NCBI RefSeq assembly: GCF_000686885.1
Contig: NZ_JMLU01000003.1
Coordinates: 1 to 64,000, forward strand
DNA from: Flavobacterium sasangense DSM 21067
Lineage (GTDB): Bacteria > Bacteroidota > Bacteroidia > Flavobacteriales > Flavobacteriaceae
Reading direction: 5' to 3'
DNA length: 64,000 bases
Every line of letters begins with the position of its first letter. Position 1 is the stretch's first letter. A program made the translations under genes and the position numbers. The notes beneath the pieces are model-generated. The model was not told the origin of the DNA and did no database searches. It worked only from the letters and a program-made list of their open reading frames with translations. This document shows positions 2,810 through 19,500 of the stretch, in pieces.

Positions 2810-3250
2810 TTATTTACTATTTAATGTTGTTCTCAGTTCAATTAACGTTGATAAATTTGTGTTTGACTGATATAATAGATAACTTATGTAAATTGAATAA
2901 AAGCTTAAAAATATTATCAACCATACTTTTATGTCAAGGTACCAACTTAATTCATCTGGGGGTTTAATTTGTGACATTTCTAATTGGTGCCTTTTTAACG
3001 ATTCAATATGATTGTAAACTAGTTTAATCATTTCGTTTTTGTTTACATTAGTATGATTTTGAAATTTATCTAATTCAACTTTTAGAGAATCAATATTCAA
3101 TTTAGGATTGTGATTTTTCAAACTATCCATTTTTGAATTTAATGTATCTGCAACAGCAAATAAATCTTTAGTTGATTTTCTATTTTTCTCCATTTCTTCA
3201 AGTAAGATTGAGACCATATCAATCAAACCAGGTTGTTTTTTACCTGCCAT
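2810..3250 (-). CDS. Membrane-anchored coiled-coil protein overlapping the relaxase gene
   Basis: The protein has 146 residues: a helical N-terminal region (1-105) rich in lysine, leucine and asparagine, then a hydrophobic segment near 110-128 (VWLIIFLSFYSIYISYLLY) and a short tail. It has the shape of a C-terminally anchored helical protein. Its start overlaps the end of the relaxase gene by 11 bp, so the two are probably translationally coupled. Bacteroidota mobilizable elements often carry small accessory genes after the relaxase gene. I do not recognise this one as a named family. Confidence 0.65.
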   Translation of the reverse strand: MAGKKQPGLIDMVSILLEEMEKNRKSTKDLFAVADTLNSKMDSLKNHNPKLNIDSLKVELDKFQNHTNVNKNEMIKLVYNHIESLKRHQLEMSQIKPPDELSWYLDIKVWLIIFLSFYSIYISYLLYQSNTNLSTLIELRTTLNSK

Positions 3251-4034
3251 GTCTAAACTTTATTTTTGGCTTTTGATTAGTTTCTATTATAGGTTTTCCA
3301 ACTATATCTTTTAAGTTAATTTTTCTATTAACTTCAGAGGCTTTGAAGCTTTCTTTTGTGGCCACATTTACAAATCTGTAACCTTGAATTAATCCTTGCT
3401 TATTAACTGAAGGTTGCACTTCAACACCCATTGTTTTCATCACTAGAAAATATTCTTCCAAAGAATTATATTGTCTTTCAATAGCTTTTAAATGCTTATT
3501 GTAAATTTCATCTTTTGTAGATTTTGGAATTGTAAAACCTTCATTTTGATTGGCTTTAATTTTACGAAACATCATTTGTTTCGCCGAAAGTAGATTTCGA
3601 CGCGAAGCAATACGATGAGCTGCCCATTGTGCCTTCTTACCAATAAAGTGATCATTAACCATTTTTCCTGTTTCCATATTCAAACGCCCGCAATAGATAT
3701 GTATATGCTTGTGACGTTTTTCTGTGTGAACAAATGCCAGTATCTGGTGGTTATCAGCATTAATACCAAGCTCTTCCATAAATTCGACTGTCATCTTCTT
3801 AAGTTCTGAATTAGATAATTTATGACCATCATCAATTGAAGGAGATAGAACCAAACTTAACGTTTTATTTTTTGCTCTGTGGTTTAAATCTTGAATTATA
3901 CTCATTTCTTCTATAATTTCTTTTGGATTTAATCCACAGAGATTGTTTCTGAGCAACTCGTAACCTTTCCTATCATTCATAATGTAATTCAATAAAGAAC
4001 CACCACCAGAACATGCTTTAGCCATACCAATCAT
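3240..4034 (-). CDS. Relaxase / mobilization nuclease (MobA-like)
   Basis: This 264-residue protein is the DNA-nicking enzyme that starts conjugative transfer by cutting one strand at oriT and staying bound through a tyrosine. The N-terminal segment has GGSLLNYI, with Tyr17 the probable nucleophile. The metal-binding histidine motif is RHKHIHIYCGRLN, with His108, His110 and His112 visible and an upstream His103. This is the layout of the mobilization nuclease family PF03432. The protein is short, with no primase or helicase domain. MobC lies 4 bp upstream and the accessory membrane gene overlaps downstream. Translation could also begin at the internal Met4. No coupling protein or type IV secretion genes are in the window, so transfer would need a helper element. 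Confidence 0.9.
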   Translation of the reverse strand: MIGMAKACSGGGSLLNYIMNDRKGYELLRNNLCGLNPKEIIEEMSIIQDLNHRAKNKTLSLVLSPSIDDGHKLSNSELKKMTVEFMEELGINADNHQILAFVHTEKRHKHIHIYCGRLNMETGKMVNDHFIGKKAQWAAHRIASRRNLLSAKQMMFRKIKANQNEGFTIPKSTKDEIYNKHLKAIERQYNSLEEYFLVMKTMGVEVQPSVNKQGLIQGYRFVNVATKESFKASEVNRKINLKDIVGKPIIETNQKPKIKFRHGR

Positions 4035-4038
4035 ATAT

Positions 4039-4335
4039 CTATTTTAGTTTCATTAAGTGTTCTCTAATTATTCTTGAGGTTTCTAATGTTTCTTTTTTTA
4101 ATCCTTCTACATCTCCCAGCTTAAATAGATTACTAATTCTTGTAAAATTTGTAGAAAAATTGGCCAGTGTTTTGTATACTTCAATTTCTTCAGGACTCAA
4201 TTTTGATGTCAATTTATAGCCTAAGACAAGTCTTCGCAATAATTCTGAAACAGCCATTCCGGAATCTTTTGCTTTCTTTTTAATTATGGCTTGCTCTAAT
4301 TTTGATACACGAAATTTTATTATTTGTTGTTTCAT
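4039..4335 (-). CDS. mobC: Relaxosome accessory protein MobC
   Basis: The 98-residue protein begins with a ribbon-helix-helix-like segment (IIKFRVSKLEQAIIKKKAKDS), followed by SELLRRLVLG and a helical C-terminus with a row of LANFSTNFTRISNLFK. This matches MobC proteins that bind oriT and help the relaxase open the DNA. The relaxase gene follows after 4 bp, which fits an operon. The intergenic DNA just upstream (4336-4383) is a candidate place for oriT, but I see no clear inverted repeat in it. Confidence 0.85.
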   Translation of the reverse strand: MKQQIIKFRVSKLEQAIIKKKAKDSGMAVSELLRRLVLGYKLTSKLSPEEIEVYKTLANFSTNFTRISNLFKLGDVEGLKKETLETSRIIREHLMKLK

Positions 4336-4383
4336 AAATATTCTCTTTATTCCCTTAAGTTAAAATTGGAATTGAAAAAGTTA

Positions 4384-5091
4384 TTAAAATCTTCTACTAG
4401 TACCATTAAGCTCTATAAGATTAAACATAGAAACAAATCTATCTCTAACTCTCGATCCATATCGTTTCTCGATTTGTATTAATGATAAATTTGTAGTAAT
4501 AAAGGTTTTTGTGTTTTTTGCAATAAACTCATCATAACGGTTCTCAAGAATTCTAATAAAAATATCCTCTTTAGAACCCCAAACATGGATATTATTTGCT
4601 TCGTTTTCACTTCCTAAATCATCAAAACAAAAAGTACCAATTGAGTAATTTTCAATTATTGAATCCTTATTTTTCTCAACATTAAATTTTTCAACCACTT
4701 TTTTTGTTTCTACAATAGGGAACCAAAGGCTTTGTAATCCATAAATTTTTGATATCATTTGAATGATTTTAAAACTGGATGATTTTCCTGTACCAGGATT
4801 ACCAATTACTAACAATCCTTTTCTCAGTTCACCACGATGTATAGTTTCAAATTCAATATCTCTAGAAAAATATTTACATAACAAATTCAAATAATTTTGA
4901 TTGTTTTCATCAATTGTAAAATCACGATTTTCTCTGCTATAATATTCTTTAGCTACTTTAATGTAAAGTCTTTTCATTTCGTCGGTATTCATAATTTTTC
5001 TTTCTTTTTTGTCCGCAACTTTTTTTCTTTCTTTTATACTCATCAGAAAATGATTGAGTACTATTTCCATAGATGCAAGTTTTGTTCTCAT
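4384..5091 (-). CDS. DnaC/IstB-like AAA ATPase
   Basis: The protein has 235 residues. The Walker A motif is GNPGTGKSS (about residue 95-103), Walker B is FCFDDLG, and sensor/arginine-finger-like segments follow (KTFITTNLS and RVRDRF). This is the arrangement of helicase-loader ATPases such as DnaC and of IstB. In elements of this type it most likely serves replication, loading a helicase at the element origin. Its ATG overlaps the stop of the preceding gene as ATGA, a sign of translational coupling with the replication-type HTH protein. The N-terminal 40 residues are lysine-rich. Confidence 0.8.
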   Translation of the reverse strand: MRTKLASMEIVLNHFLMSIKERKKVADKKERKIMNTDEMKRLYIKVAKEYYSRENRDFTIDENNQNYLNLLCKYFSRDIEFETIHRGELRKGLLVIGNPGTGKSSSFKIIQMISKIYGLQSLWFPIVETKKVVEKFNVEKNKDSIIENYSIGTFCFDDLGSENEANNIHVWGSKEDIFIRILENRYDEFIAKNTKTFITTNLSLIQIEKRYGSRVRDRFVSMFNLIELNGTSRRF

Positions 5092-5504
5092 TCTATAAAT
5101 TTTTCACGTGAATTATTACTTTTTTCTTTAAAGAAAATATTAGATTTACTATTAATATTTTTTTTATTATCTTTTAGAAAAACATCAATAGATATATTTA
5201 TGTCTTTAACAATACCGCTTCCTTTAATCTCTAAATACCTATTTAGAATTTGTTTAGTACCTTCTTTATAGATAATTTTTGATTCAATGTATCCAAGTTT
5301 TACTAATGAATTAATCCATAAACTGACTGTTTCAGTTCTTACTTCAAATAAATCTGCAAAATATCTATTTGTGGCCCAACAGAATCCGTATTGGGAGGAC
5401 AATGCTGTAATTTCACTATAAAGCAACTTTGCGCTAGGTTTTAATCTTTTATCATATCTAACGGTTGATGTCAAATAAGAATAATATGAAGGTTTTATGC
5501 TCAT
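5088..5504 (-). CDS. Helix-turn-helix replication-initiator-like protein
   Basis: This 138-residue protein has an N-terminal winged-helix region (about 12-75) with the segment LKPSAKLLYSEITALS followed by NRYFADLFEVRTETVSLWINSLVKLGYIES. That pattern is common in phage replisome organisers and plasmid replication proteins of the DnaD/RepA-N type. The C-terminal 50 residues are low-complexity, rich in lysine and asparagine. It overlaps the ATPase gene by 4 bp, so the pair probably works together in initiation and helicase loading. The assignment is by motif shape and position. Confidence 0.7.
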   Translation of the reverse strand: MSIKPSYYSYLTSTVRYDKRLKPSAKLLYSEITALSSQYGFCWATNRYFADLFEVRTETVSLWINSLVKLGYIESKIIYKEGTKQILNRYLEIKGSGIVKDINISIDVFLKDNKKNINSKSNIFFKEKSNNSREKFIE

Positions 5505-5601
5505 AATTTAAATTGTTTTTAATTAATTTCACTACATTTACATTTATAGGATAGATGCAACAAAAAAAGACCTAAGTAGAACAAATGTTCTAATTAGATC
5601 T

Positions 5602-5835
5602 TTAGTCATTGATTAAATGAGGGTTTTTTAAAGCAAGGTTTGTCAATTGAGATTTACTAAATATCGGAAATCTCCCTAATTGGAAATATGGAATTTTACC
5701 TTGCTTTTTCCAAGCAATTATTGTTTGTTCAGTTCTACCAAAAAGTTCTGCAACTTGTCTTTGATTTAACCTGTCATCTGATTCTGGAATGATAATTTTA
5801 GAATCATTTTCGGTGTGTTTTTTCTGTAATGCCAT
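5602..5835 (-). CDS. Excisionase-like helix-turn-helix protein
   Basis: This 77-residue protein contains one MerR/excisionase-type helix-turn-helix: LNQRQVAELFGRTEQTIIAWKKQGKIPYFQLGRFPIF (about residues 23-60), the pattern of the helix_turn_helix_17 family. Proteins like this bind near attachment sites and steer integrases towards excision, or regulate element genes. It is placed between the replication genes and the integrase-side genes on the same strand. About 95 bp of non-coding DNA on its downstream side (5505-5601) may carry the promoter for the replication and mobilization genes. Confidence 0.8.
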   Translation of the reverse strand: MALQKKHTENDSKIIIPESDDRLNQRQVAELFGRTEQTIIAWKKQGKIPYFQLGRFPIFSKSQLTNLALKNPHLIND

Positions 5836-5914
5836 TTTAACTTATTTTATTTGGTTAACATTGGCAAAACTATATCAGAATCAAATAAAGCTTTTTACAT
5901 AAGGCTACATAAAA

Positions 5915-7159
5915 CTATTCTTCAGGGTTCAAAAATTTATTTACATTCAACCTAACCAAATCAGGTACAGCAAAATCAACATCAATTTCAAATCTTGAAT
6001 AAAAAATATCATTTAAACTACTTTCAGACATTCCTTCAATTTTATTAAAAAAGTTAGACAGAAGATATTTAAGTTTATTAGCAGCTTTACTAAATAAATT
6101 AATATTTAAATAAAAAAGGAATGCTTTAAATTTATTTCTATTAAATTCATCACTTAAAACCCTATTGAGTTTAATTTGAACATTTTTAATATCAATTAAA
6201 TCATAAGACGGATAAGCTTCCATTAATACAGAAATAAAAATCTTAATATCTTTTTTTGTTACTTCACTACTCAATTCTTCAAAAAAAATATACAATGAAT
6301 CCTCAAACAAGTCCATGTTCTTTATATTTTTTTTCTTCAATATCATTTTCAAATCATGTACAATATTTCTTTGTTTAAAAAAATCAGTATAGTCTAAGAT
6401 CTCTAGAATTTCCTTTTTTGTAATGTGTTTTTTACTATCATATATAAGATTTATCTTCTTTTCTTCATAGTTTATAATTGGAATAAATTCTAATTTCAGT
6501 CTGTCAAAAAAAATTCGATTAACTTCAAAATATTCTGCTTCAAATGATTCTAAATTTCTGTTCTGAATATTATGCCTTACTGCATTCTTAAATTTATTTA
6601 AAGCTGTTTTTTTTTCATATCTAAAAAAGAATGAATAAGCAGAATTAATAGGAACATTTACATTTTGTTCAGTCTCATAATAACTTAAAACTTTTGGAGG
6701 TATAAGTTTATCAAATAAATTTTTACTAATTCGAATGTAAACATTATTAAAAAGACAAGATTTAGCTAATCTTTGCAGCTCAACTATTTCTCCAATTATA
6801 AAAGCAATGAAATCAGCAGTATTATGCTCAAGTCTTGAATTATCAATTTTGTCAAATATCTCAACTTCTTTTTTTTGATACCATCGATATTCTTCCTCAA
6901 AAATTAAATTCTCAATAATTTTTTTCTTGTCTTTATCATGAATACTTCCTATTAAATTATCTAGTTGACTATATTTTAGATTATTAACTATGTCATATTT
7001 AATATTATCAAGTATTGAATCCGTTAATTCTAATGAATTTATATTATCTAAAATAACTAAAAAATGAGGAATTATTTTTTTGTATTTAACTTCTTCAATC
7101 TTTTTGTCCTTAAAAAAAATTTCTTTAAAGTTTTGTCTAATAAAAAATAGTGCATTCAT
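5915..7159 (-). CDS. Uncharacterised 414-residue cytoplasmic protein, element cargo
   Basis: The protein is 414 residues, rich in lysine, isoleucine, asparagine and phenylalanine, with no signal peptide and no membrane segment. It appears largely helical. The sequence includes an ISRNLFDKL-like helical middle part and a conserved-looking segment AEYFEVNRIFFDRLKLEFIPII (about 205-226, trimmed in any comparison). I do not recognise a known domain. The gene lies 11 bp downstream of the integrase gene, so the two are probably co-transcribed. In Bacteroidota integrated elements this position often holds a regulator (RteC-like) or a defence or cargo gene, but neither can be shown from the sequence. 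Confidence 0.75.
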   Translation of the reverse strand: MNALFFIRQNFKEIFFKDKKIEEVKYKKIIPHFLVILDNINSLELTDSILDNIKYDIVNNLKYSQLDNLIGSIHDKDKKKIIENLIFEEEYRWYQKKEVEIFDKIDNSRLEHNTADFIAFIIGEIVELQRLAKSCLFNNVYIRISKNLFDKLIPPKVLSYYETEQNVNVPINSAYSFFFRYEKKTALNKFKNAVRHNIQNRNLESFEAEYFEVNRIFFDRLKLEFIPIINYEEKKINLIYDSKKHITKKEILEILDYTDFFKQRNIVHDLKMILKKKNIKNMDLFEDSLYIFFEELSSEVTKKDIKIFISVLMEAYPSYDLIDIKNVQIKLNRVLSDEFNRNKFKAFLFYLNINLFSKAANKLKYLLSNFFNKIEGMSESSLNDIFYSRFEIDVDFAVPDLVRLNVNKFLNPEE

Positions 7160-7170
7160 ATCTAAAATAT

Positions 7171-8427
7171 TTAAAAGTTTTCATCCCAAGTTCTCTTCAT
7201 TTCCTGCTGTTTTAAAGCATTTGTTAATTTCACATACTTTTTAAACGATCTTTCTGAAGAGTGATTAGTAAAATCTCTCAAAACTCTTTCATTCATCCCC
7301 ATTAATAATGAATTTGTTACGAAAGTCTTTCTCGATACATGACAAGTTATAAGTTCATATTTTTTATATGTTTCTTCTTTTCGCTTTGAACCTATATATC
7401 TTGTTATAGTAGTATTTTTATCAATCCCAACAATCTTGCAGCATTCTTTTATGTAATCATTTAATTTCTGAGATGAAAACTTTGGAACTGGTTGATGTAT
7501 TGTATCTCTATACTTATCCAATATAGCTTTTGAATATTTATTCAATTCAACTCTATGACTAATGGTCTTGGTTTTAATTATGTTTAATTCAATAAAACTC
7601 TCGCTAATATTAGCATTATGAAGGTTATAAATGTCGGAATATCTTAATCCTGTAAAGCATCCAAAACAGAAGAAATCTCTGGCCCTTGAGAGCTTGTTAT
7701 TCTCAAAAGGGTATTCAAACAAACTTATCAACTCATCCTTTTCAAGATAAATAACCTCAATCTCATTTTCTACATGCTTAATTTTTTTAAACTCCAGATT
7801 ATTATGTAAACCTCGATTGAATGCCCAGTTCATGAAAGTCTTTATAATGCTTATTAATTTGCCATAATAATTATTCAGTGTCTTTCTTTCTTCAAAGGCA
7901 TAATCCATGAACTCTTCCTCAAAATTTAAATTGATGGTATCAAAACGGATAGGATATTTGGTTGCTTGAGCAAAATCAATTAAAAAATTTCTCAAAGTAA
8001 TATATCGCTTAATAGTTCCTTCAGTTTTGGTGTGTTTGGAAGCTTTTACAAAGTCGTCAAATGCTTCAAAAAAATCAATTCCAACAGAGACTTCATCTTT
8101 ACCAAATTTCTCTAGGAATATTTTTTCAGAAAACTCTATATCATTGAATTTAAAAAAGTTAAAAATCTTCTCTACCTTATCCTTAGTATTTTGAATCTCC
8201 TTGTTTGAATCTAGATACTCGTCATAATATTGGTGTTTCTTATGGTTTTTAATATATCCGTTTTTTGAGTCCCAATCTTCCAATAAAGTTTTCACATTAG
8301 GTAGATTTTTCCGAATTTTAATTTTATTAGAAGTTATGACTATTCTGACTGGAATGAGTCCGTTCTTATTTACCTTATCCTTTCTAAGTTCAAACAAATA
8401 GTTCATATTAAAATTCATTATAATCAA
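7171..8427 (-). CDS. Tyrosine integrase of the mobilizable element
   Basis: This 418-residue integrase has an N-terminal arm-binding region (1-95), a SAM-like core-binding domain (about 105-205) and a C-terminal catalytic domain. The catalytic arginine is in TGLRYSD, the H-x-x-R box is HVSRKTF, and the second histidine and nucleophilic tyrosine are in NHSSERSFKKYVKL. This is the layout of Bacteroidota conjugative and mobilizable element integrases. It sits at the right end of the element, reading inward, with chromosomal genes beginning 290 bp to its right. The start could also be at Met4 or Met8; the difference does not affect any domain. Confidence 0.95.
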   Translation of the reverse strand: MIIMNFNMNYLFELRKDKVNKNGLIPVRIVITSNKIKIRKNLPNVKTLLEDWDSKNGYIKNHKKHQYYDEYLDSNKEIQNTKDKVEKIFNFFKFNDIEFSEKIFLEKFGKDEVSVGIDFFEAFDDFVKASKHTKTEGTIKRYITLRNFLIDFAQATKYPIRFDTINLNFEEEFMDYAFEERKTLNNYYGKLISIIKTFMNWAFNRGLHNNLEFKKIKHVENEIEVIYLEKDELISLFEYPFENNKLSRARDFFCFGCFTGLRYSDIYNLHNANISESFIELNIIKTKTISHRVELNKYSKAILDKYRDTIHQPVPKFSSQKLNDYIKECCKIVGIDKNTTITRYIGSKRKEETYKKYELITCHVSRKTFVTNSLLMGMNERVLRDFTNHSSERSFKKYVKLTNALKQQEMKRTWDENF

Positions 8428-8620
8428 TTACACTAGGGGAGCAAAAGGGGGATTATTTTAATATTAAAATCAGTTAAAACTAATTAAAATTTAATCTTAT
8501 AACCCTTTATTTTTCAAATATAATGAATTATTATGAATTAAAAACAGTTTAAAAAAAGAGGAACTCCCTCCTTGGTCACTTTTGTTACAATTTATTCTCA
8601 ATCCTATCCCCTATATTATA
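8428..8620. other. Gene-free junction right of the integrase
   Basis: This stretch is AT-rich with no ORF. It must contain the integrase promoter, probably the right attachment site of the element, and the boundary with chromosomal DNA. A short GC-richer block near 8562-8580 stands out from the AT-rich surroundings and is a candidate for the attachment core. I found no matching copy on the left side of the window. Confidence 0.4.
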
Positions 8621-8704
8621 TTTGTTTAACCAAATTTAGACTATCGTTAAACATTTTTACCAAAATACTTTTTTTGTTCACTTTTTTTATTACTTTTGTT
8701 AAAC
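8621..8704. promoter_or_regulatory. Operator/promoter of the CarH-like regulator gene
   Basis: Four GTTNAAC-type boxes start at 8624 (GTTTAAC), 8646 (GTTAAAC), 8676 (GTTCAC, degenerate) and 8698 (GTTAAAC). Within each pair the spacing is exactly 22 bp, two helical turns. A TAnnTTTG -7 element (8691-8698, TACTTTTG) overlaps the last box, 22 bp before the start codon. The same box pair occurs upstream of crtI. The arrangement fits autoregulation by the adjacent MerR-type protein; binding is inferred. Confidence 0.7.
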
Positions 8705-8719
8705 AAAATGAAATGAGAG

Positions 8720-9619
8720 ATGAACAACGTTAAAAATGTTTTCAGTATCAAAGATTTAGAAAATCTTTCAGGAATAAAAGCACACACGATTCGTATCTGG
8801 GAAAAACGCTATAATGTATTAGAGCCTATGCGTTCAGATACTAACATTCGTTCGTATGATATTAAGAATTTACAAAAGCTTTTAAATATCGTATTACTTC
8901 ACAATTACGGCTATAAAATTTCAAAAATAGGCACGCTTAATCAGGAGCAAATTAACAAGTTAGCCAACGACATTATTTCCGAAAAAAGTGCAAAAAATCA
9001 CGCCATTAGTACTTTCAAAATGGCAATGATGAATTTTGATCAATCTTTGTTTTTTAATACATACAATCAATTACTAAGTGAAAAATCATTTCGTGAAGTA
9101 TTTTATACCGTTTTCATACCGCTGATGCAAGAAATTGGATTTCTTTGGCAAACCGAGACCATTTCTCCAGCACACGAACATTTCATTAGTTATTTAATCA
9201 AACAAAAACTTTTAATAAATACAGAAAAAGTACAAATACTAGAACCAACTAAAACAGACAAAGTTTTTGTGTTATTTCTTCCACTAAATGAAGTTCATGA
9301 ACTTGGTTTGATGTACTTGAATTACGAAATACTTTTAAAAGGCTACCAAACCATCTATCTTGGAGAAAGTATTCCAACTGACAGCTTGTTAGATTTAATT
9401 AATTCGTATGAAAAAATATCTTTTGTTAGTTATTTAACCGTTGAACCAAATCAGGAAGAAATTGACAATTATATAATTGATATTCAAGCGAAACTAATTG
9501 AAAACACCAATCATGAATTGTTATTATTAGGTAGAATGACGCAATCCATATCATCCAAAGTCATCAAAAATAACGTACATGTATTTGATAGTATAGAAGA
9601 ACTTTCAAATACTTTGTAA
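8720..9619 (+). CDS. MerR-family regulator with B12-binding (CarH-like) domain
   Basis: The 299-residue protein has an N-terminal MerR helix-turn-helix (residues 8-75, with HTIRIWEKRY) and a C-terminal cobalamin-binding module. The module shows the hallmark of CarH/LitR photoreceptors: Trp143 followed after nine residues by Glu153-His154, and the E-x-H-x-x-G motif with His193 as probable lower cobalt ligand. In CarH, adenosylcobalamin-bound tetramers repress carotenoid genes in the dark and light breaks the complex. Its gene directly precedes crtI, and both promoters share the same 22-bp-spaced boxes. The ATG at 8720 is used because the one at 8708 is followed by a stop. Light and B12 response are inferred from the family, not shown. 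Confidence 0.9.
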   Translation: MNNVKNVFSIKDLENLSGIKAHTIRIWEKRYNVLEPMRSDTNIRSYDIKNLQKLLNIVLLHNYGYKISKIGTLNQEQINKLANDIISEKSAKNHAISTFKMAMMNFDQSLFFNTYNQLLSEKSFREVFYTVFIPLMQEIGFLWQTETISPAHEHFISYLIKQKLLINTEKVQILEPTKTDKVFVLFLPLNEVHELGLMYLNYEILLKGYQTIYLGESIPTDSLLDLINSYEKISFVSYLTVEPNQEEIDNYIIDIQAKLIENTNHELLLLGRMTQSISSKVIKNNVHVFDSIEELSNTL

Positions 9620-9624
9620 AAAGA

Positions 9625-9661
9625 TTTGTTTTGTTTAACTTTTTTACTATTTTTGTTAAAC
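9625..9661 (+). promoter_or_regulatory. crtI promoter with paired GTTWAAC operator
   Basis: Two boxes, GTTTAAC starting at 9633 and GTTAAAC starting at 9655, lie 22 bp apart, each inside a TTTTGTTWAAC context (9629-9639 and 9651-9661). A Bacteroidota promoter overlaps them: TTTG at 9625-9628 and TATTTTTG at 9648-9655 with 19 bp between. A repressor on the boxes would cover the promoter. The leader to the GTG start at 9675 would be only about a dozen bases. Confidence 0.75.
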
Positions 9662-9674
9662 AAAATAAAAACAA

Positions 9675-11135
9675 GTGAGTAAAAACATCGCCATAATCGG
9701 TTCAGGATTTTCTTCGTTAGCTGCAGCTTGCTATTTAGCAAAACAAGGTAACGATGTGACTGTTTACGAAAAAAATAGTACCATAGGAGGAAGAGCTCGT
9801 CAACTTAAAAAGGAAGGCTTTACATTCGATATTGGCCCAACATGGTATTGGATGCCCGATGTATTCGAGCGTTTCTTTGCTGACTTTGACAAAAAACCTT
9901 CAGATTATTACGAGTTAATTAAGCTTTCCCCAGCCTACCAAGTCTATTTTGGACATTTGGATTTTGTTACTATTGCCGATAACTTACCAGAAATTGTAAA
10001 AACTTTCGAATCTATCGAGAAAGGAAGCGGAAAGCAATTAGAGCAATTCATGGCGGAAGCTAAAAGCAATTATGATATCGCTATTAAAGATTTGGTATAT
10101 CGTCCAGGTGAATCGCCTTTGGAATTGATTACTTTAGAAACAGCCAAAAAAGTGAATCAATTTTTCAGTAACATTAAAAAAGATGTTCGAAAACGATTCA
10201 AAAACATGAAATTGGTTCAAATTTTAGAGTTTCCCGTTTTATTTTTGGGAGCAAAACCAAGCGATACGCCTTCTTTTTACAATTTCATGAATTTTGCTGA
10301 TTTTGGCTTGGGAACATGGCATCCAAAAAACGGAATGTATTCGGTAATCTTAGCTATGGAAACATTGGCTAAAGAGTTAGGTGTTAAAATCGAAACCAAT
10401 GCTAATGTTCAAAAAATTGATGTTACCAACGGAAAAGCGACTGGCTTATTGGTAAAAGACAAAATTATTACAGCTGATATTGTTCTAAGTGGCGCCGATT
10501 ATCACCATTCAGAAACCTTATTGGATGAGAAATATCGTCAGTATTCTGAGAAATATTGGGAAAACAAAACGTTTGCTCCATCTTCGCTACTATTTTATGT
10601 TGGGTTTAATAAAAAAATTGAAAACGTAGAACATCATTCTTTATTCTTTGATGTTGATTTCGATATTCACGCCGAAGCTATTTATGATAATCCAAAATGG
10701 CCTGAAGAACCTTTGTTTTACGCAAGTTTTCCATCAAAAACCGATGAAAATTCAGCTCCAGAAGGAAAAGAAGCAGGAATATTTCTGATTCCATTAGCAC
10801 CAGGATTAGAAGATACTCTGGAGCTAAGAGAACTTTATTTTGAAAAAATAATAACACGATTAGAACAGCTAACTAATCAAAGTGTGAAAAATAATATTAT
10901 CTTTAAAGAATCGTTTTGTGTAAATGATTTTGTTAAAGAATATAATTCGTACAAAGGGAATGCGTATGGTATGGCCAATACCTTATTGCAAACCGCTTTT
11001 TTAAGACCTAAATTGAAAAGTAAAAAAGTACAAAATTTGTATTTTACTGGACAGTTAACCGTACCAGGACCGGGAGTTCCACCGTCCTTAATTTCAGGAA
11101 AATTAGTTGCCGATTTAATAAAAAAGTATCAATAG
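9675..11135 (+). CDS. crtI: Phytoene desaturase
   Basis: This 486-residue FAD enzyme introduces double bonds into phytoene to give lycopene. The N-terminal Rossmann motif is IIGSGFSSLAAACYLA followed by the acidic residue ending the second strand (VYEKN) and GGRA. The C-terminal segment GQLTVPGPGVPPSLISG is the typical CrtI signature near the flavin. The length matches the family. Translation starts at a GTG, 55 bp after the regulator gene and just behind the operator. crtB follows after one base, so the genes form an operon. The bacterial flavobacterial enzymes act at the inner membrane. Confidence 0.95.
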   Translation: MSKNIAIIGSGFSSLAAACYLAKQGNDVTVYEKNSTIGGRARQLKKEGFTFDIGPTWYWMPDVFERFFADFDKKPSDYYELIKLSPAYQVYFGHLDFVTIADNLPEIVKTFESIEKGSGKQLEQFMAEAKSNYDIAIKDLVYRPGESPLELITLETAKKVNQFFSNIKKDVRKRFKNMKLVQILEFPVLFLGAKPSDTPSFYNFMNFADFGLGTWHPKNGMYSVILAMETLAKELGVKIETNANVQKIDVTNGKATGLLVKDKIITADIVLSGADYHHSETLLDEKYRQYSEKYWENKTFAPSSLLFYVGFNKKIENVEHHSLFFDVDFDIHAEAIYDNPKWPEEPLFYASFPSKTDENSAPEGKEAGIFLIPLAPGLEDTLELRELYFEKIITRLEQLTNQSVKNNIIFKESFCVNDFVKEYNSYKGNAYGMANTLLQTAFLRPKLKSKKVQNLYFTGQLTVPGPGVPPSLISGKLVADLIKKYQ

Positions 11136-11136
11136 T

Positions 11137-11976
11137 ATGAAGTCCATTTTTGATAACGTTTCATTTGATTGTAGCGTAAAAGTTACTAAAGCGTACAGTA
11201 CGTCATTTTCATCTGCTGTAAAAATGTTAGCGCCTAGTATCCGACAAGACATCTATAACATTTACGGTTTTGTTCGCTTTGCGGATGAAATTGTAGATAC
11301 TTTTCACGATTACGATAAAGAAGCCTTGTTTTCTCAGTTTGAAAATGAATTAAGTTTAGCGCTATCGCAAAGAATTAGCTTAAATCCAATTTTAAATTCA
11401 TTTCAACATACTGTGAATAAATATAATATTCCACGAGAAATGATTGATGCTTTTATGAAAAGTATGAAATTAGATTTGAGTAAAAGCGAATACAAAACTA
11501 CAGAAGAATATCAAGAATATATTTATGGTTCAGCCGATGTTGTGGGATTAATGTGCTTGAAAGTTTTCGTAAACGGAAATGATGAAAAGTACAATGCATT
11601 AAAAGATTCAGCTATGCGTTTAGGTTCGGCTTTTCAAAAAGTGAATTTCTTAAGAGATTTAAAAGCTGATTTTGAAGAATTAAGCAGAACTTATTTCCCT
11701 AATACCGATTTGAATCATTTGGATGAAAAATCAAAACAAGAAATCATTGCTGATATTGAAAGTGATTTTGAAGCAGCTTATGAAGGAATTAAAAACTTAC
11801 CTTTAGAGGCTAAATTTGGAGTTTATACAGCGTACAGATATTACAAGAAGTTATTAAAAAAACTTCAAAAAACACCTTCTTTAGAAATCAAGAATACTCG
11901 AATTCGAGTTTCTGATTATCAAAAAGTAGAATTATTGGCCAGATGTTACGTCAAATACAGATTAAATATAATATAA
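11137..11976 (+). CDS. crtB: Phytoene synthase
   Basis: This 279-residue enzyme joins two geranylgeranyl diphosphates head to head to give phytoene, the first committed carotenoid. Both aspartate-rich motifs are visible: ADEIVD (about residues 50-55) and DLKAD in RDLKADFEELSRTYFP (about 175), which hold the magnesium and diphosphates. The early segment YSTSFSSAVKML is typical of squalene/phytoene synthases. The gene starts one base after the crtI stop. crtZ follows after 10 bp. Confidence 0.95.
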   Translation: MKSIFDNVSFDCSVKVTKAYSTSFSSAVKMLAPSIRQDIYNIYGFVRFADEIVDTFHDYDKEALFSQFENELSLALSQRISLNPILNSFQHTVNKYNIPREMIDAFMKSMKLDLSKSEYKTTEEYQEYIYGSADVVGLMCLKVFVNGNDEKYNALKDSAMRLGSAFQKVNFLRDLKADFEELSRTYFPNTDLNHLDEKSKQEIIADIESDFEAAYEGIKNLPLEAKFGVYTAYRYYKKLLKKLQKTPSLEIKNTRIRVSDYQKVELLARCYVKYRLNII

Positions 11977-11986
11977 TACTATAATT

Positions 11987-12430
11987 ATGTGGTTACACGT
12001 TTTAGTTTTTTTTACAACTTTTTGCTTTATGGAATTTATGGCTTGGTTTAGTCACAAATACATCATGCATGGTTTTTTATGGAGTTTACACGCCGATCAT
12101 CATAAAAAAGATCACGATTCGTGGTTTGAACGTAATGATGCTTTCTTTATTTTTTATGCTGTTGTGAGTATTGGTTGTTTTTTATTATGGCAGCACGATA
12201 TCTTAGAAATTGGTTTAGCAATTGGATTAGGAATTTTCGCTTACGGATTGGCTTATTTCTTAGTACATGACATTTTTATTCACCAACGATTTAAGTTGTT
12301 TAGAAATGCCAACAATCGTTATGCTAAAGCTGTTAGACGTGCTCACAAAATGCATCACAAACACATAGGAAAAGAACACGGAGAATGTTTCGGAATGTTA
12401 ATCGTTCCTTTGAAATACTTTAAAAACTAA
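11987..12430 (+). CDS. crtZ: Beta-carotene hydroxylase
   Basis: This 147-residue membrane di-iron hydroxylase adds 3-hydroxyl groups to beta-ionone rings, giving zeaxanthin. Histidine boxes are His23-x4-His28, His35-x2-His38-His39, a later VHDIFIHQRF and the final HKMHHKHIG. Four hydrophobic segments surround them, as in the fatty acid hydroxylase fold. It is the last gene of the crt operon and ends at a strong terminator. The substrate needs a lycopene cyclase (CrtY), and none is in this cluster, so that gene must lie elsewhere if zeaxanthin is the product. Confidence 0.92.
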   Translation: MWLHVLVFFTTFCFMEFMAWFSHKYIMHGFLWSLHADHHKKDHDSWFERNDAFFIFYAVVSIGCFLLWQHDILEIGLAIGLGIFAYGLAYFLVHDIFIHQRFKLFRNANNRYAKAVRRAHKMHHKHIGKEHGECFGMLIVPLKYFKN

Positions 12431-14582: not shown

Positions 14583-16502
14583 TTAAAACATGAAATTCAA
14601 ACCTAATTTATAATTTCTTCCTCTTGTATTATAACCAATTACTTCTTGGAAATCTTCGTTTAAAATATTGGTTACAGTTCCAAAAATATGCAAACGCTTT
14701 GGTAATAATTCATATGAAATATTCGAATTAACCAACTGATAAGCAGCTAAATTAACAGCCTGTGTTGCCCAAATATTCATATCATAAAAAGCATCGCTTC
14801 TATGATCTACATATTGATAATTGATTCCGAAAGTTCCTCTTTTGAATTTGTAATTCAAATCGACATTTCCTTTGTGTTTTGGAATTAATCGGTTTAATTG
14901 CTCTTCAACTTGAGTAAACGTATAATTTCCTCCAATATTGAATCTTTCAGATAATGTATAACGAACACTTGTTTCTACTCCTTTTGCATTGTATGTTTCA
15001 TCAATATTGATGTAATTTGATGTAAAGCCAAAAGTATTTTCTTCTTCTCTATAAAAACCAACCGCATTTATCGTTAATTTTTTATTCAATAATTGCGATT
15101 CAAAACCAAATTCTGCCGTAGCATTTTCTTCTGGAGTTAAATCTAAATTCCCGTAAGGACCATATAATTGGTATAAACTTGGAGTGATGAAAGCTGTACT
15201 ATACGAAGCTAATACTTTTAATGGTAGATTTTCAAATGAATAACTCGGATTAAAATTATAAACTACTTGATTTCCGTATTCGCTGTGTGTATTGAAACGA
15301 GCTCCAGCGTTAATGTTTAACCCAAAATCAGAATTAAAAACCAAAGTTGCATACGGATCTAATAAGTTGAATTTAGCATTTTCTTTGATAACATCTACTA
15401 CTCCATTCGTGTTTTGCGTCATATCAAAATACTGATATTGTGCACCTAAAACTAAATATACTTGTTTGCTGAAATTGTATTTATTGAAAGCATCAATCGA
15501 TGCACTTCTACCCGAATAATTGTAATTATCAATGGTTCCCGACCACGAATTTGAAATATTTAAAACTCTATCAATAGTTGAAGCACCTGCATTTATAGCA
15601 AATTCTCCTTTATTGTATTTGTATTTTGGTAAGAATCCGATTCTGAACTGTTCTGAAAAACTATTGTTGTTTAAATCATCTGCATTAGCGATAATTCCGT
15701 CAAACGAATTGTCAAATGTGTTTTTGATTCGGTCATAATTCCCAAAAAACTCAAAACTTAATTTATCGTTTGCTTTAAAACCAATTTTCTGCAACACATT
15801 CACTCTCGAAAACCTATCTTCTTCAAAATTTTCTCCAGCAGCTTCCGACATACCTTTGGTTTCGGTGCTGTTTAAAGTCGTCATGTAGGAAACTTTATTA
15901 ATCGTTCCGTTTACCGATAATCCTTGATTGAAATCTTGTGCACTTGTTTTTGAAGTTTCCGAAGTGTTTTGCGTTCCCATATTGATGTACGCATTTCCAG
16001 AAATTTCCTTTTTAGCTGATTTTTTCAACGTAATATTGATAACTCCTGTTGCCGCTCCAGTTCCGTATAACGTACTCGAAGCTCCTTTCATGACTTCAAT
16101 TTTCTCGATTTGTTCTACTGGAATTAAACGCAAATCGTATTCGATATTAATTCCTGAAGCATCAGAAACCGGAACACCATCAATATAGATCGCTACTTGA
16201 CGATTACGGCCTCCACGAATGTAATAGCCTAAATTTTTTCCATTAAACGATTGATTTCCGTTAATTTCCACTCCGGCAACCTGACTCAAAACATTAGCTA
16301 AATTTTGACCTTTTTTAGCTTCTAAGTCTTGAGCGGTAATCACTTCAATAATTTTACCTGATTTTTCTTTACTTTGCGCAAATTTTGTGTCCGAAATAAC
16401 AACTTCTTTTAAGTTGTTAACTTTTAGCGTATCTGATTCTTGAGCATACGCAAAAGCAGTTGCTAGTGTAAATACACTTAAGCCAATAAACTTTTTGTTC
16501 AT
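14583..16502 (-). CDS. btuB: TonB-dependent receptor, vitamin B12 (BtuB-like)
   Basis: The protein has 639 residues from the ATG at 16502, where a normal signal peptide begins (MNKKFIGLSVFTLATAFAYAQ); the longer frame to 16562 runs into the riboswitch and is not used. A plug domain follows (about 45-160, with IEVITAQDLEAKKG and the closing VMKGASSTLYGTGAATGVINITLKK), then a 22-strand barrel ending in aromatic phenylalanine (LGLNFMF). Size and plug resemble BtuB, which takes cobalamin across the outer membrane with TonB energy. The cobalamin riboswitch directly upstream and the divergent BtuFCD-like genes make the substrate assignment strong. Confidence 0.92.
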   Translation of the reverse strand: MNKKFIGLSVFTLATAFAYAQESDTLKVNNLKEVVISDTKFAQSKEKSGKIIEVITAQDLEAKKGQNLANVLSQVAGVEINGNQSFNGKNLGYYIRGGRNRQVAIYIDGVPVSDASGINIEYDLRLIPVEQIEKIEVMKGASSTLYGTGAATGVINITLKKSAKKEISGNAYINMGTQNTSETSKTSAQDFNQGLSVNGTINKVSYMTTLNSTETKGMSEAAGENFEEDRFSRVNVLQKIGFKANDKLSFEFFGNYDRIKNTFDNSFDGIIANADDLNNNSFSEQFRIGFLPKYKYNKGEFAINAGASTIDRVLNISNSWSGTIDNYNYSGRSASIDAFNKYNFSKQVYLVLGAQYQYFDMTQNTNGVVDVIKENAKFNLLDPYATLVFNSDFGLNINAGARFNTHSEYGNQVVYNFNPSYSFENLPLKVLASYSTAFITPSLYQLYGPYGNLDLTPEENATAEFGFESQLLNKKLTINAVGFYREEENTFGFTSNYINIDETYNAKGVETSVRYTLSERFNIGGNYTFTQVEEQLNRLIPKHKGNVDLNYKFKRGTFGINYQYVDHRSDAFYDMNIWATQAVNLAAYQLVNSNISYELLPKRLHIFGTVTNILNEDFQEVIGYNTRGRNYKLGLNFMF

Positions 16503-16584
16503 TTTAAGGTTAATAAAATTTAATAAATTGGGGAGAAAAGCACAGAATTTACCCATACTCAAACTTTTTTTCCCGAAAGTTTGT

Positions 16585-16845
16585 TACTCAATGAATGTGG
16601 CAGGTCTCCTGGCTTGCGTCTTGTTATCAACCTTCCCATCGAAAGTTAGAAATTAGAAGTTAGAAGTTAGAAATTTTCTAAATTCAGAATTCTTAATTCT
16701 AAATTAACAACAGTGGTAATGTAGATAATAACAAGCTTTATAGCTTACAGTTGCGGGTACAGCTTAGGTCTTACACCTAATTCCCTTTTAATGTTGTTTT
16801 GAAAAATTCAGAAACAACAACCAAAATTCGGGTGCAAATTTACAT
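16585..16845 (-). promoter_or_regulatory. Cobalamin riboswitch
   Basis: On the minus strand the conserved B12 box (GCCAGGAGACCTGCC) is at about 16599-16614, and the core segments GGGAATTAGGTG and ACCCGCAACTGTAAGC lie upstream. The 5' limit near 16845 is set by a stem pairing around 16793-16820. Between core and B12 box is a variable arm that contains a simple AT-rich repeat (about 16640-16705). Downstream, a hairpin at 16560-16584 lies in the btuB leader and may be the expression platform. High adenosylcobalamin should shut off btuB. Confidence 0.95.
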
Positions 16846-17112: not shown

Positions 17113-18243
17113 ATGCGTCATTATTTCTTTTTAGTCGTTTTATTTTTGGGTTTTATCCAGTGTAAAGAATCAGAAAACTCAGCAAATCTGAATACTTCTG
17201 CACAAAATAGTATTCAACATGCAGAAGGATTTTCTATTGAAAAATACGATGGTTTTTCGGTTGTAAAAGTTTCTAACGCTTATCCTGAAGCTAAAGATAA
17301 TTACACTTATGTACTTCATAAAAAAGGAGTTCAAATTCCAGATAGTTTGCAACAATTTACTACGATCGAAGTCCCAATCAAAAAAGTAATCGTTACTTCA
17401 ACAACGCACATTCCTGCTTTGGAATCTTTAGGAGTAGAAAATACTTTAATTGGTTTTCCTACAACAGAATATATCTCATCTGAAAAAACAAGAGCTTTAA
17501 TCGATGCCGGAAAAGTGCGCGATTTAGGTTCTAATCAAGGATTAAATACCGAAGTTATTTTAGACATTCAACCTGATGTAATCGTAGGATTTAGTGTTGA
17601 TGGCGATTTGAAAACTTACAAAAATCTAGAAAAAAACGGTCAAAAAATCATCTTCAATGGCGATTGGACCGAAAAAACGCCTTTGGGAAAAGCCGAATGG
17701 ATTAAGTTTTTCGGCGCACTCTATGATTTAGACGAAAAAGCAACTGAAATTTTCAATTCGATTGAGAAAGAATACAATTCCGTATTAGATTTAGCGAAAA
17801 AAGCGAAAACCCAACCAACCATTTTTGCAGGTGCTATCTACGAAGACCAATGGTTTTTACCACAAGGCGATAGTTGGGCAGCCTATTTTTTAAAAGAAGC
17901 CAACGGAAATTATCTATGGAAAGATTCCAAAGGAACTGGAAGTTTAGCCTTGTCCTTTGAAAGTGTTTTAGACAAAGCCAAAGATGCTGATTTTTGGATT
18001 GGTCCAGGGCAATTTGGCTCTATCAAACAAATTTTAGAAAGCAACCCCAATTACATTCATTTCAAAGCCGTAAAGAACAAAAACGTCTATTCGTTTAGTA
18101 CTAAAAAAGGAAAAACAGGCGGTGTTATTTATTACGAATTAGCACAAAATCGACCTGATTTGGTTTTGAAAGACATTGTAAAGATTTTACATCCTGAAGT
18201 ATTACCGGATTATGAGTTGTTCTTTTTTGAGAAGTTGAAATAG
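17113..18243 (+). CDS. btuF: Cobalamin-type ABC transporter substrate-binding lipoprotein
   Basis: The 376-residue protein has a lipoprotein signal (LGFIQC, Cys18) and the two-lobed periplasmic binding fold of the TroA/BtuF type. Typical segments are VIVTSTTHIPALESLGVENTLIG, then DIQPDVIVGF and the late YELAQNRPDLVLKDI. A TACTTTTG -7 element lies at 17091-17098. It is divergent from btuB and is followed by a FecCD-type permease and an ATPase gene, so it should deliver the cobalamin brought in by BtuB to the inner membrane transporter. The substrate is inferred from the neighbouring riboswitch. Siderophore binding is the alternative. Confidence 0.85.
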   Translation: MRHYFFLVVLFLGFIQCKESENSANLNTSAQNSIQHAEGFSIEKYDGFSVVKVSNAYPEAKDNYTYVLHKKGVQIPDSLQQFTTIEVPIKKVIVTSTTHIPALESLGVENTLIGFPTTEYISSEKTRALIDAGKVRDLGSNQGLNTEVILDIQPDVIVGFSVDGDLKTYKNLEKNGQKIIFNGDWTEKTPLGKAEWIKFFGALYDLDEKATEIFNSIEKEYNSVLDLAKKAKTQPTIFAGAIYEDQWFLPQGDSWAAYFLKEANGNYLWKDSKGTGSLALSFESVLDKAKDADFWIGPGQFGSIKQILESNPNYIHFKAVKNKNVYSFSTKKGKTGGVIYYELAQNRPDLVLKDIVKILHPEVLPDYELFFFEKLK

Positions 18244-18283
18244 ACACGAATTTCACGAATTAACAGGAATTACATTTCTTTAA

Positions 18284-18312
18284 ATTTCTCACATTTCTTT
18301 AATCTGTGTTCC
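18284..18312 (+). repeat. Inverted repeat copy A around the permease gene
   Basis: This 29-bp segment is the reverse complement of 19381-19409 with two mismatches; the inner 20 bp are perfect. It lies between btuF and btuC. The text resembles dispersed non-coding repeats of flavobacterial genomes. Confidence 0.75.
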
Positions 18313-18355
18313 AAAAATAGATTCTAAAAATGTAATTTAGCCAAAAATTCAACGC

Positions 18356-19381
18356 ATGCCATTAACCAAAAAACAGAATCTTCTTTTTATCATCTTACTT
18401 TTAGTAATGGTGTTTTTGTTTTTGGTGAATATCAGTCTAGGTTCGGTTTCTATTCCTTTGAAAGAAGTAGTTAACGGACTTTTATCGCAAGAAATGAGTA
18501 AGGAAAGTTGGGAAATTATTCTGTGGAATTTCCGCTTTCCAAAAGCCGTAACCGCAATTTTAGTAGGAATCGGACTTTCAATGAGCGGCTTGTTGATGCA
18601 AACATTATTTCGAAATCCATTAGCTGGACCTTATGTTTTGGGATTGAGTTCGGGTGCGAGTTTGGGTGTGGCGTTTATCATTTTAGGTACAGGATTTTTA
18701 CCCACCTTTATCTCATCCTTCTTTTTATCGAATTACGGATTAGTATTAGCTTCGAGTTTAGGCAGCTTTTTAGTTTTAATGGCAGTTTTATTGGTTTCCC
18801 AAAAATTAAAAGACACCATGGCAATTCTAATTGTCGGATTGATGTTTGGAAGTTTCACTGGTGCTATAGTTTCGATTTTATCCTATTTTACTTCGGCTGA
18901 AAAATTGCAGAAATTCACCTTTTGGTCCATGGGAAGTATTTCGAATTTATCCTGGAATGAAATTTCGCTTTTATCCGTTTTTGTTATAATCGGAATTGGA
19001 ATTAGTTTCATGGTTATCAAACCTTTGAACGCATTACTTTTAGGAGAAAAATATGCGCAAAGTATCGGAATCAATTATAAGAAAACGCGTTTTTTAATAA
19101 TCATCGCAACCAGTATTTTAGCTGGTAGCATCACCGCTTTTGCTGGTCCGATTGCTTTTATCGGTTTGGCAGTTCCGCATATGGCGAAGTTGTTGTTTCA
19201 GACGAGTAATCATTTTGTGTTATTTTGGAGTACACTATTACTTGGCGCCATTGTAATGTTGTGTTGTGATACAATTGCGCAAGTTCCAGGAAATGATATT
19301 ACCTTACCAATAAATGCAATAACTTCTGTAATTGGAGCACCAGTTGTGATTTGGTTGTTAGTGAGAAAGAAACGTTTTTAG
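18356..19381 (+). CDS. btuC: FecCD/BtuC-type ABC permease
   Basis: This 341-residue protein has about ten membrane segments. It carries the conserved segments LRNPLAGPYVLGLSSGASLGVA-like (FRNPLAGPYVLGLSSGASL) and GPIAFIGLAVPHMAKLL, the cytoplasmic loop that contacts the ATPase, near residue 265. The family transports vitamin B12 and iron-siderophores. It follows the binding-protein gene by 112 bp and precedes the ATPase gene by 119 bp. A nearly perfect 29-bp inverted repeat brackets the gene. Assignment to cobalamin comes from the adjacent riboswitch and BtuB. Confidence 0.88.
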   Translation: MPLTKKQNLLFIILLLVMVFLFLVNISLGSVSIPLKEVVNGLLSQEMSKESWEIILWNFRFPKAVTAILVGIGLSMSGLLMQTLFRNPLAGPYVLGLSSGASLGVAFIILGTGFLPTFISSFFLSNYGLVLASSLGSFLVLMAVLLVSQKLKDTMAILIVGLMFGSFTGAIVSILSYFTSAEKLQKFTFWSMGSISNLSWNEISLLSVFVIIGIGISFMVIKPLNALLLGEKYAQSIGINYKKTRFLIIIATSILAGSITAFAGPIAFIGLAVPHMAKLLFQTSNHFVLFWSTLLLGAIVMLCCDTIAQVPGNDITLPINAITSVIGAPVVIWLLVRKKRF

Positions 19382-19409
19382 GAACACAGATTAAAGAAAT
19401 ATAAGAAAT
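19381..19409 (-). repeat. Inverted repeat copy B around the permease gene
   Basis: This is the partner of 18284-18312. It begins on the last base of the permease stop codon. Recombination between the two copies would invert the permease gene relative to its neighbours. Confidence 0.75.
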
Positions 19410-19500
19410 CAACTTAAATGAACTTTTATGTAATTTTATAAATACTTCCAACTTATATGACTTAAATGTTTAAAAATTAATCCGTGGCAATATAATAAAA

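Follow-up and report, generated by a model that had tools for sequence, protein, structure and literature searches.

A CarH-like protein encoded beside carotenoid genes

Light-induced carotenoid synthesis has been reported in a Chryseobacterium, where the regulator is not known according to the available part of that report (PMC7064467). More broadly, the literature searched, which was mostly titles and abstracts and left subscription journals largely outside, contained no description of a regulator for the light response of pigmented flavobacteria, nor of a CarH operator or light regulon in Bacteroidetes or Flavobacteriia. The locus described here raises the question of whether such a regulator is encoded next to the carotenoid genes of Flavobacterium sasangense DSM 21067. 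We refer to the whole stretch of DNA analysed, 64,000 nucleotides in length, as the window. The candidate regulator gene is at 8720..9619 (+). It is followed by genes for a crtI-type phytoene desaturase, the predicted target (9675..11135, +; PF01593, E 5.9e-27), a crtB-type phytoene synthase (11137..11976, +; PF00494, E 3.5e-46), and a crtZ-like hydroxylase (11987..12430, +). Note that we take the first of these to be crtI from its context. Similarly, the crtZ-like name is our assumption, made from position only; that gene had no Pfam match at E 0.01 and no NCBIfam match at E 1e-5.

The regulator is 299 amino acids long. Judged from the open reading frame, Pfam, phmmer, and an AlphaFold2 model, it consists of a MerR-type DNA-binding domain and a four-helix/Rossmann B12-binding module. 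This fusion, a feature of CarH proteins, is apparent from Pfam (PF13411, E 1.2e-12; PF02607, E 7e-9) and from the model; the Rossmann B12 domain gave no Pfam match at E 0.01. At the protein level, the closest named homologues are 99% (MAG W57) and 98% (F. proteolyticum) identical. Among solved structures, the top phmmer matches were chains of Thermus CarH/LitR (TtCarH; 3whp, E 4e-11; 5c8d, E 4.8e-11). The AlphaFold2 model, built from 45 sequences, has a mean pLDDT of 89.8, and its 11 best structural matches were all Thermus CarH. The best of these, 5c8e, aligned over 270 residues (Z 18.6) with an rmsd of 11.2 across both domains. Hence, the two domains are placed differently in the model. The cobalamin domains of TtCarH fitted with rmsd values of 2.1-2.3 (for 9s06, Z 18.2, rmsd 2.3, 196 residues). 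Next came the CtMerR domain 8jbt (Z 17.7) and the photocobilin domain 8j2w (Z 17.6). By sequence and predicted fold, the regulator is a relative of CarH, of the MerR/B12-binding type.

We then compared the residues that matter for cobalamin binding across 110 close homologue loci. The initial annotation had noted Trp143-x9-Glu153-His154 and E191-x-H193-x-x-G196 in the regulator, and both are present. The first, Wx9EH, holds the adenosyl group in CarH, and W143, E153, and H154 are invariant (110/110). E191, H193, and G196, of the D/ExHx2G motif with the lower-axial His, are also conserved in all 110. The remaining B12 motif (SxT/V, GG) is less well kept; S237 is retained in 82 of 110 and the second Gly in all, while the first Gly is L, I, M, V, or T throughout. 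In 108 of 110, Asn replaces the Gly of the GxxH signature (as given in the accessible part of PMC11796333). The RxWE(K/R)RY recognition helix is retained in the regulator and its homologues. Hence, the Thermus thermophilus protein and the regulator share domain architecture, W-x9-EH, the ExHxxG lower ligand, the recognition helix, and a crt target, here a predicted one.

The pocket is nonetheless not fully that of CarH. The residue directly after Trp143 is Gln (Gln144), not His, which the initial annotation overlooked. This position corresponds to His132 of Thermus CarH, the upper ligand of the light state, and is Gln in 109 of 110 homologues (His in one, L106). Hence, the bis-His light state of Thermus cannot form in the same way. 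A second difference concerns a polar dimer contact, Arg176-Asp201, described for Thermus CarH in the available part of PMC10442372. In all 110 homologues Arg176 is replaced by Ile or Val, and Asp201 by Ser, Thr, or Asn, so that contact is missing. We conclude that it is a trait of the Thermus protein, not of the CarH family. The same portion of that source describes H132A Thermus CarH as mostly still tetrameric in light, and cites a contrary earlier report (PMC10442372). Furthermore, CtMerR of Chloracidobacterium has Arg at this position, and light still drives its conversion from tetramer to monomer. The photocobilin SasPcob, which also has a light-responsive cobalamin domain, has Gln (PMC11796333, accessible part). 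Both folds match our model, although SasPcob has a biliverdin-binding region and no MerR domain (PMC11796333). Neither an operator nor a regulon is given for the two proteins in the accessible part. Since CtMerR responds to light with Arg, His132 is not a defining feature of the CarH family. By analogy, the missing His132 would not exclude light sensing; it implies different chemistry.

These substitutions bear on whether B12 is used at all. The regulator might instead act at the same sites as a B12-independent repressor, its B12 module being structural, with light perceived by another sensor (a LOV protein, as in class II LitR, or CarS, as for CarA). Class II LitR proteins are not known to bind B12 and are defined by loss of the B12 pocket residues. 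The Gln at the His132 position and the degenerate GG motif would suit such a protein. So would the gene set described below, which resembles the LOV-controlled set of Pseudomonas class II LitR (PplR, PmlR), where photolyase, cryptochrome, SDR, and FolE genes are light-induced, judged from the available text (PMC9758184). The class II site given there, T(G/A)TACA, also resembles our predicted half-site. Conversely, the pocket residues lost from class II LitR are here kept in 110 of 110 homologues, and crt genes are adjacent. CarA-type proteins, which are B12-independent, are without the Trp of W-x9-EH according to the accessible part of PMC9304148, whereas W143, E153, H154, and H193 do not vary here. 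Light responses are also published for the cobalamin domains of CtMerR and SasPcob, which have Arg and Gln, respectively, at the His132 position (PMC11796333). On balance, we regard B12-independent repression as unlikely.

An inverted repeat as the predicted operator

In the initial annotation, three pairs of GTTWAAC boxes were described, two before the regulator gene and one before crtI, all with 22-bp start-to-start spacing and overlapping -7 elements. The spacing is as described in each case, and two pairs are exact (8624/8646, before the regulator gene, and 9633/9655, before crtI). The pair closest to the regulator gene, 8676/8698, is imperfect; its first box reads GTTCACT. The two exact pairs are the only matches to GTTWAAC-N15-GTTWAAC in the 3,157,372-base genome (control, 0). 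The Bacteroidetes -7 consensus is TAnnTTTG. Three boxes lie directly after a -7-like element of this form: TATATTTG (8617..8624, +), TACTTTTG (8691..8698, +), and TATTTTTG (9648..9655, +).

The first reading missed that the two boxes of each pair, together with their conserved flanks, form an inverted repeat. The predicted operator is better described as TTGTTTAA-N16/17-TTAAACAA. It takes the place of the 22-bp-spaced GTTWAAC motif because the flanking TT and AA belong to the site and because the dominant gap is 16, corresponding to a box spacing of 21 bp. Hence, the 22-bp spacing holds for the pairs in the window and is not the rule; gap 16 was found in 66 of 76 sites listed from relatives. 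Predicted operator P1 of the regulator (8622..8654), TTGTTTAA-N17-TTAAACAt, has one mismatch and overlaps TATATTTG. P2 (8674..8706) is weaker, with two mismatches and a gap of 17; it overlaps TACTTTTG, and its right half directly follows that element. The predicted crtI operator (9631..9663), TTGTTTAA-N17-TTAAACAA, is perfect, overlaps TATTTTTG, and is conserved in relatives. The crtI box pair is present, for example, in Flavobacterium aquaticum (L036) and F. cheniae (L045).

TAAACA is present in each half-site and agrees with the TnnACA reported for CarH repeats (PMC9304148, available part). As with Thermus CarH, according to the accessible parts of PMC8156234 and PMC9304148, the site overlaps the core promoter. 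The arrangement differs, since published CarH operators are tandem 11-bp direct repeats and the predicted operator here is an inverted repeat. The operator had been called unlike published CarH sites; this is true of the arrangement and not of the half-site. We conclude that the tandem direct-repeat operator is characteristic of the CarH members studied, not of the protein family. An inverted-repeat site was at one time suggested for the CarH paralogue CarA of Myxococcus xanthus, which acts at a crt promoter, but the protein was concluded to read direct repeats, as far as the available text goes (PMC9304148).

A hidden array of 11-bp direct repeats was also considered. Two 11-bp steps would account for the 22-bp spacing at crtI but not for the gap of 16. 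In addition, direct pairs of the same half-site, with gaps of 3-27, were at background level in the family genomes described below (218+236 = 454, compared with 212+221 = 433 in the control). For these two reasons we rejected the array. No middle half-site was seen in the spacers of 53 gap-16 sites outside crt loci, and these spacers prefer A/T at positions 3-5 from either end. The inner distance, from TGTTTA to TAAACA, is 18-19 bases. In TnrA-type MerR sites it is 7. Hence, the predicted operator is longer by about one helical turn.

Sites across the genome and in relatives

Across the 3.16-Mb genome, TTGTTTAA-N(10-24)-TTAAACAA occurs exactly four times, always with a gap of 16 or 17; the reversed control gave none. 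One site precedes crtI, in the window. The second, on contig C12, precedes an operon encoding an SRPBCC-like protein, an SDR, and two photolyases. A third, on C16, is before genes for a flavin reductase, a small protein, a DASH cryptochrome, and a DPRP photolyase. The last, also on C12, precedes a TIGR03643/DUF2805 gene with DUF2452. All three PF00875 photolyase/cryptochrome genes of the genome are inside the site-bearing C12 and C16 operons. Note that the small C16 reading frame is presumably DUF2256-like, and that we take the 154-aa C12 protein to be SRPBCC-like; the latter matched nothing in Pfam or NCBIfam at E 1e-5. When the outermost base of each half was dropped, and gaps of 13-20 allowed, seven sites were found, all with gaps of 16 or 17 (control, 3). 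Besides the four exact sites, they comprise P1 and the sites that precede msrA-folE (C25) and a TetR_C_23 gene (C2). One-mismatch sites thus precede the regulator, msrA-folE, and the TetR gene, the last having a gap of 16 (C2:164795). With three mismatches permitted, 35 real matches were fewer than 61 in the control, so that scan does not discriminate; matches with two mismatches were at C2:190005, C4:101095, C7:29031, and C10:29095. We also considered hemA as a target, for which a -7-like element with a single box was present at C8:84365. No partner was found within four mismatches, and hemA was dropped.

The predicted regulon therefore comprises, besides the carotenoid genes, photolyases, a DASH cryptochrome, a DPRP photolyase, an SDR, a flavin reductase, TIGR03643, MsrA, and FolE. 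It is wider than that of Thermus CarH and includes photolyases. The initial annotation had predicted a carotenoid switch. A site does precede crtI, but photolyases, cryptochrome, and msrA-folE carry the same site, so more than a carotenoid switch is indicated.

The position of the site relative to TAnnTTTG is not constant. The right half falls on this element at crtI, P2, and msrA, the left half does so at P1 and TIGR03643, and at C16 the site is upstream. Classical MerR proteins activate transcription in a fixed register. Since the sites meet TAnnTTTG in several registers, steric repression fits better, and we disfavour a reading of the regulator as a predicted classical MerR activator.

Conservation was assessed in 299 genomes of the family, with gaps of 13-20 allowed and a reversed control. 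There were 494 inverted-repeat sites (control, 55), distributed over 213 genomes. The sites track the regulator. A close homologue (E < 1e-60) was present in 220 genomes, of which 196 had a site (462 sites; control, 37) and 24 had no exact site. With a weak homologue only, 5 of 22 had a site (11; control, 5), and with none at E 1e-10, 12 of 57 (21; control, 13). One genome in which no homologue was found, G079, is 81% complete and has six sites. Site presence in 196/220 genomes with a close homologue, compared with 17/79 others, gives a Fisher odds ratio of 29.8 (p 1.4e-28), uncorrected for relatedness. Of 246 genomes drawn for a survey of the order, 119 had a homologue at E 1e-10 and 82 had a site. 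Of the 206 genomes outside the family, 43 had a homologue at E <= 1e-45, and 31 of these had a site (43 sites; control, 4); among the remaining 163, 15 had one (16 sites; control, 16).

The initial annotation had suggested looking for box conservation beside the genes in relatives. Such conservation was found after the regulator gene. In this comparison we left out L033, which is near-identical to the window, and one locus was too short downstream. Within 120 bases after the regulator gene, a site was present with up to one mismatch in 51 of 108 loci, and with up to two in 55 (dinucleotide shuffles, 0.0 and 0.8). Note that crtI usually follows the regulator gene, although this was not established locus by locus. 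The other 53 loci had no site within two mismatches in this stretch. Hence, about half have no recognizable site at the following gene. Upstream of the regulator gene, over 200 bases, the numbers were 12 and 28 of 109 (shuffles, 0.0 and 1.6), and these sites are weaker than those after it. The prediction that the regulator acts on its own gene and on crtI through shared sites is well supported by the conservation after the regulator gene, by co-occurrence with the homologue, and by the sites beside more distant homologues described next.

More distant loci were chosen, not drawn at random: 20 homologues of 33-49% identity, all but one from other families of the order (19 homologues, nine families), the exception being a weak homologue within the family. 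Sites with 0, 1, and 2 mismatches or fewer were found in 8, 11, and 13 of them (shuffles, 0.0, 0.1, and 0.65). Eleven of the twelve loci L241-L252 had a site within one mismatch, no more than about 600 bases from the match, eight of them perfect; L247 had none, and for L250 the stretch searched was longer on one side. Sites therefore adjoin homologues of 35-49% identity in other families. In the same twelve proteins, position 144 is Gln in ten, Arg in one (L250, which is also without His193), and Leu in one (L252). The eight loci L253-L260 had no site within one mismatch. Two of these, L259 and L260, have symmetric variants, also with a gap of 16: TTGTATAA/TTATACAA, twice, and TTGTCTAA/TTAGACAA. 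Changes matched in both halves, though few, support a real inverted repeat as the predicted site. As a side observation, four contigs titled as Rhizobium or Bifidobacterium MAGs contain flavobacterial regulator loci, and are probably mislabelled bins.

We read the genes beside 76 of the 494 sites, in 75 loci; these are the sites listed, taken in listing order and not as a random draw. The gap was 16 in 66, 17 in 3, and one of five other values in 7. We counted a site as promoter-proximal if it was within 250 bases before an ORF start or up to 130 past it. Among the sites listed, 67 of the 69 on-gap sites were promoter-proximal and none was inside an ORF of at least 120 aa; of the seven off-gap sites, three were promoter-proximal and four inside such an ORF. 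These figures bear on the suggestion that the sites are a coincidence of AT-rich promoters, TAnnTTTG sequences that happen to run on into TTWAAC. The sites do partly overlap -7-like elements, and TAnnTTTGTTWAAC, one element with one box, matched the genome seven times (control, 3+4), neither more rarely nor more commonly than its control. It is the pairs that stand out: 4 compared with 0, and 494 compared with 55, in reversed controls, with a fixed gap, no enrichment of the direct arrangement (454 compared with 433), and, among the sites listed, no on-gap pair in coding sequence. Promoter coincidence is already contradicted by spacing and control counts, and we give it almost no weight.

Genes at the listed sites were grouped by BLAST cluster; some of the ORFs are divergent neighbours and not necessarily targets. 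Most frequent were fasciclin-type genes (19; three members Pfam-checked), then crtI (15). Others were Porph_ging/GLPGLI (4), MsrA (3; two by cluster, and one by eye, where G193:C6:156114 precedes an MsrA-like gene), SRPBCC-like (2), DUF2867 (2), and TetR_C_23 (2). Four sites adjoin a cluster that we take to be Hsp90-like. Single cases were SDR, DASH cryptochrome-like, FolE, DUF2452-like, GHMP kinase, and a fatty-acid-desaturase-fold protein that is presumably crtW. The other ORFs near listed sites belong to no labelled group. In ten loci the fasciclin gene is divergent to a gene of a cluster that we presume to be mnmA-like. To our knowledge, GLPGLI-type and fasciclin genes have no tie to light. 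In L195 (genome G034), the site is between genes for proteorhodopsin (PF01036) and a blh-type beta-carotene 15,15'-dioxygenase (PF15461). Hence, proteorhodopsin may in some species be a further target of the switch. Across relatives and the window genome, a TetR_C_23-type gene with a site occurs in L176, L224, and L261; in L224 it is followed by an ABC1-type atypical kinase gene.

Could the operator belong to another regulator, such as a TetR-type protein, with the CarH-like gene merely one target? The one-mismatch, gap-16 site at C2:164795 before a TetR_C_23 gene, and TetR-type genes at sites in 2 of 75 loci, would be compatible with this. Against it, site presence tracks the CarH-like gene, and sites flank that gene in other families. 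The RxWE(K/R)RY helix is kept, and the half-site contains the CarH TnnACA of the published repeats (PMC9304148, available part). We therefore consider a different owner of the site very improbable.

A proposed light switch and its B12 supply

The explanation that we think likely is a dark-active AdoCbl repressor of the CarH kind, with a symmetric operator, a different light switch, and a photoprotection regulon. By analogy with CarH, it would repress in the dark with AdoCbl and be released by light. Briefly, in the dark and with AdoCbl bound, the regulator would occupy TTGTTTAA-N16/17-TTAAACAA as a two-fold symmetric oligomer, and so block promoters with core elements that the site overlaps. 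On illumination, the Co-C bond would be cleaved and the regulator released. Release would turn on carotenoid synthesis, the regulator's own gene, the photolyases, cryptochrome, msrA-folE, and other genes. With Gln at the His132 position and no Arg176-Asp201 pair, neither the oligomer nor the light-released state can be the same as in Thermus CarH.

A broader proposal, for which we see the case as evenly balanced, is that the regulator is a CarH of a second kind. Such an AdoCbl-dependent light repressor would do without the bis-His trap and the head-to-tail dimer contact of Thermus, and would read a two-fold symmetric operator with half-sites about two helical turns apart. Much of the Flavobacteriaceae, and related families, would use it as their photoprotection switch, joining carotenoids, photolyases/cryptochromes, MsrA-FolE, and, in one genome, the proteorhodopsin/blh-type region, with B12 scavenged from neighbours setting the light response. 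For pigmented flavobacteria, the analysis puts forward a concrete candidate regulator of the light response, together with a predicted DNA site and a list of candidate genes. Pigments, photolyases, and oxidation repair would be under a single switch responding to B12 and light, which, across a large bacterial family, would link pigmentation and the photorepair of DNA to a scavenged vitamin. The regulator is in addition a candidate B12 repressor whose predicted operator is simple and symmetric and whose photochemistry must differ from that of Thermus CarH.

The surroundings of the locus provide context for B12 supply. A cobalamin riboswitch (16582..16840, -; RF00174, 91.2 bits, cutoff 31.5), not itself part of the switch, is followed directly downstream by a gene for a TonB-dependent receptor (14583..16562, -; PF07715), about 4 kb downstream of the crt genes. 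Judged from the riboswitch, this is probably a B12 receptor. Divergent to both, at 17113-20286 (+), are genes for a periplasmic binding protein, a permease, and an ABC ATPase; the name permease is our presumption. Hence, B12 uptake genes probably lie next to the B12-type regulator, a few kb from the crt operon. The genome also encodes an adenosyltransferase (PF01923, E 1.3e-61). Together, this gene and the riboswitch before the TonB receptor indicate that B12 is probably scavenged.

On the other side of the locus, relaxase, NikA-like, and tyrosine-integrase genes (3240-8579) end just upstream of the regulator gene. At that place, five related loci have a tRNA-Lys/tRNA-Lys/tRNA-Leu(GAG) cluster, L038 has tRNA-Leu alone, and L037 has none. 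The window retains only a stretch resembling a tRNA 3' end, near 8564-8579. A mobilizable element may have inserted at the tRNA-Leu gene there.
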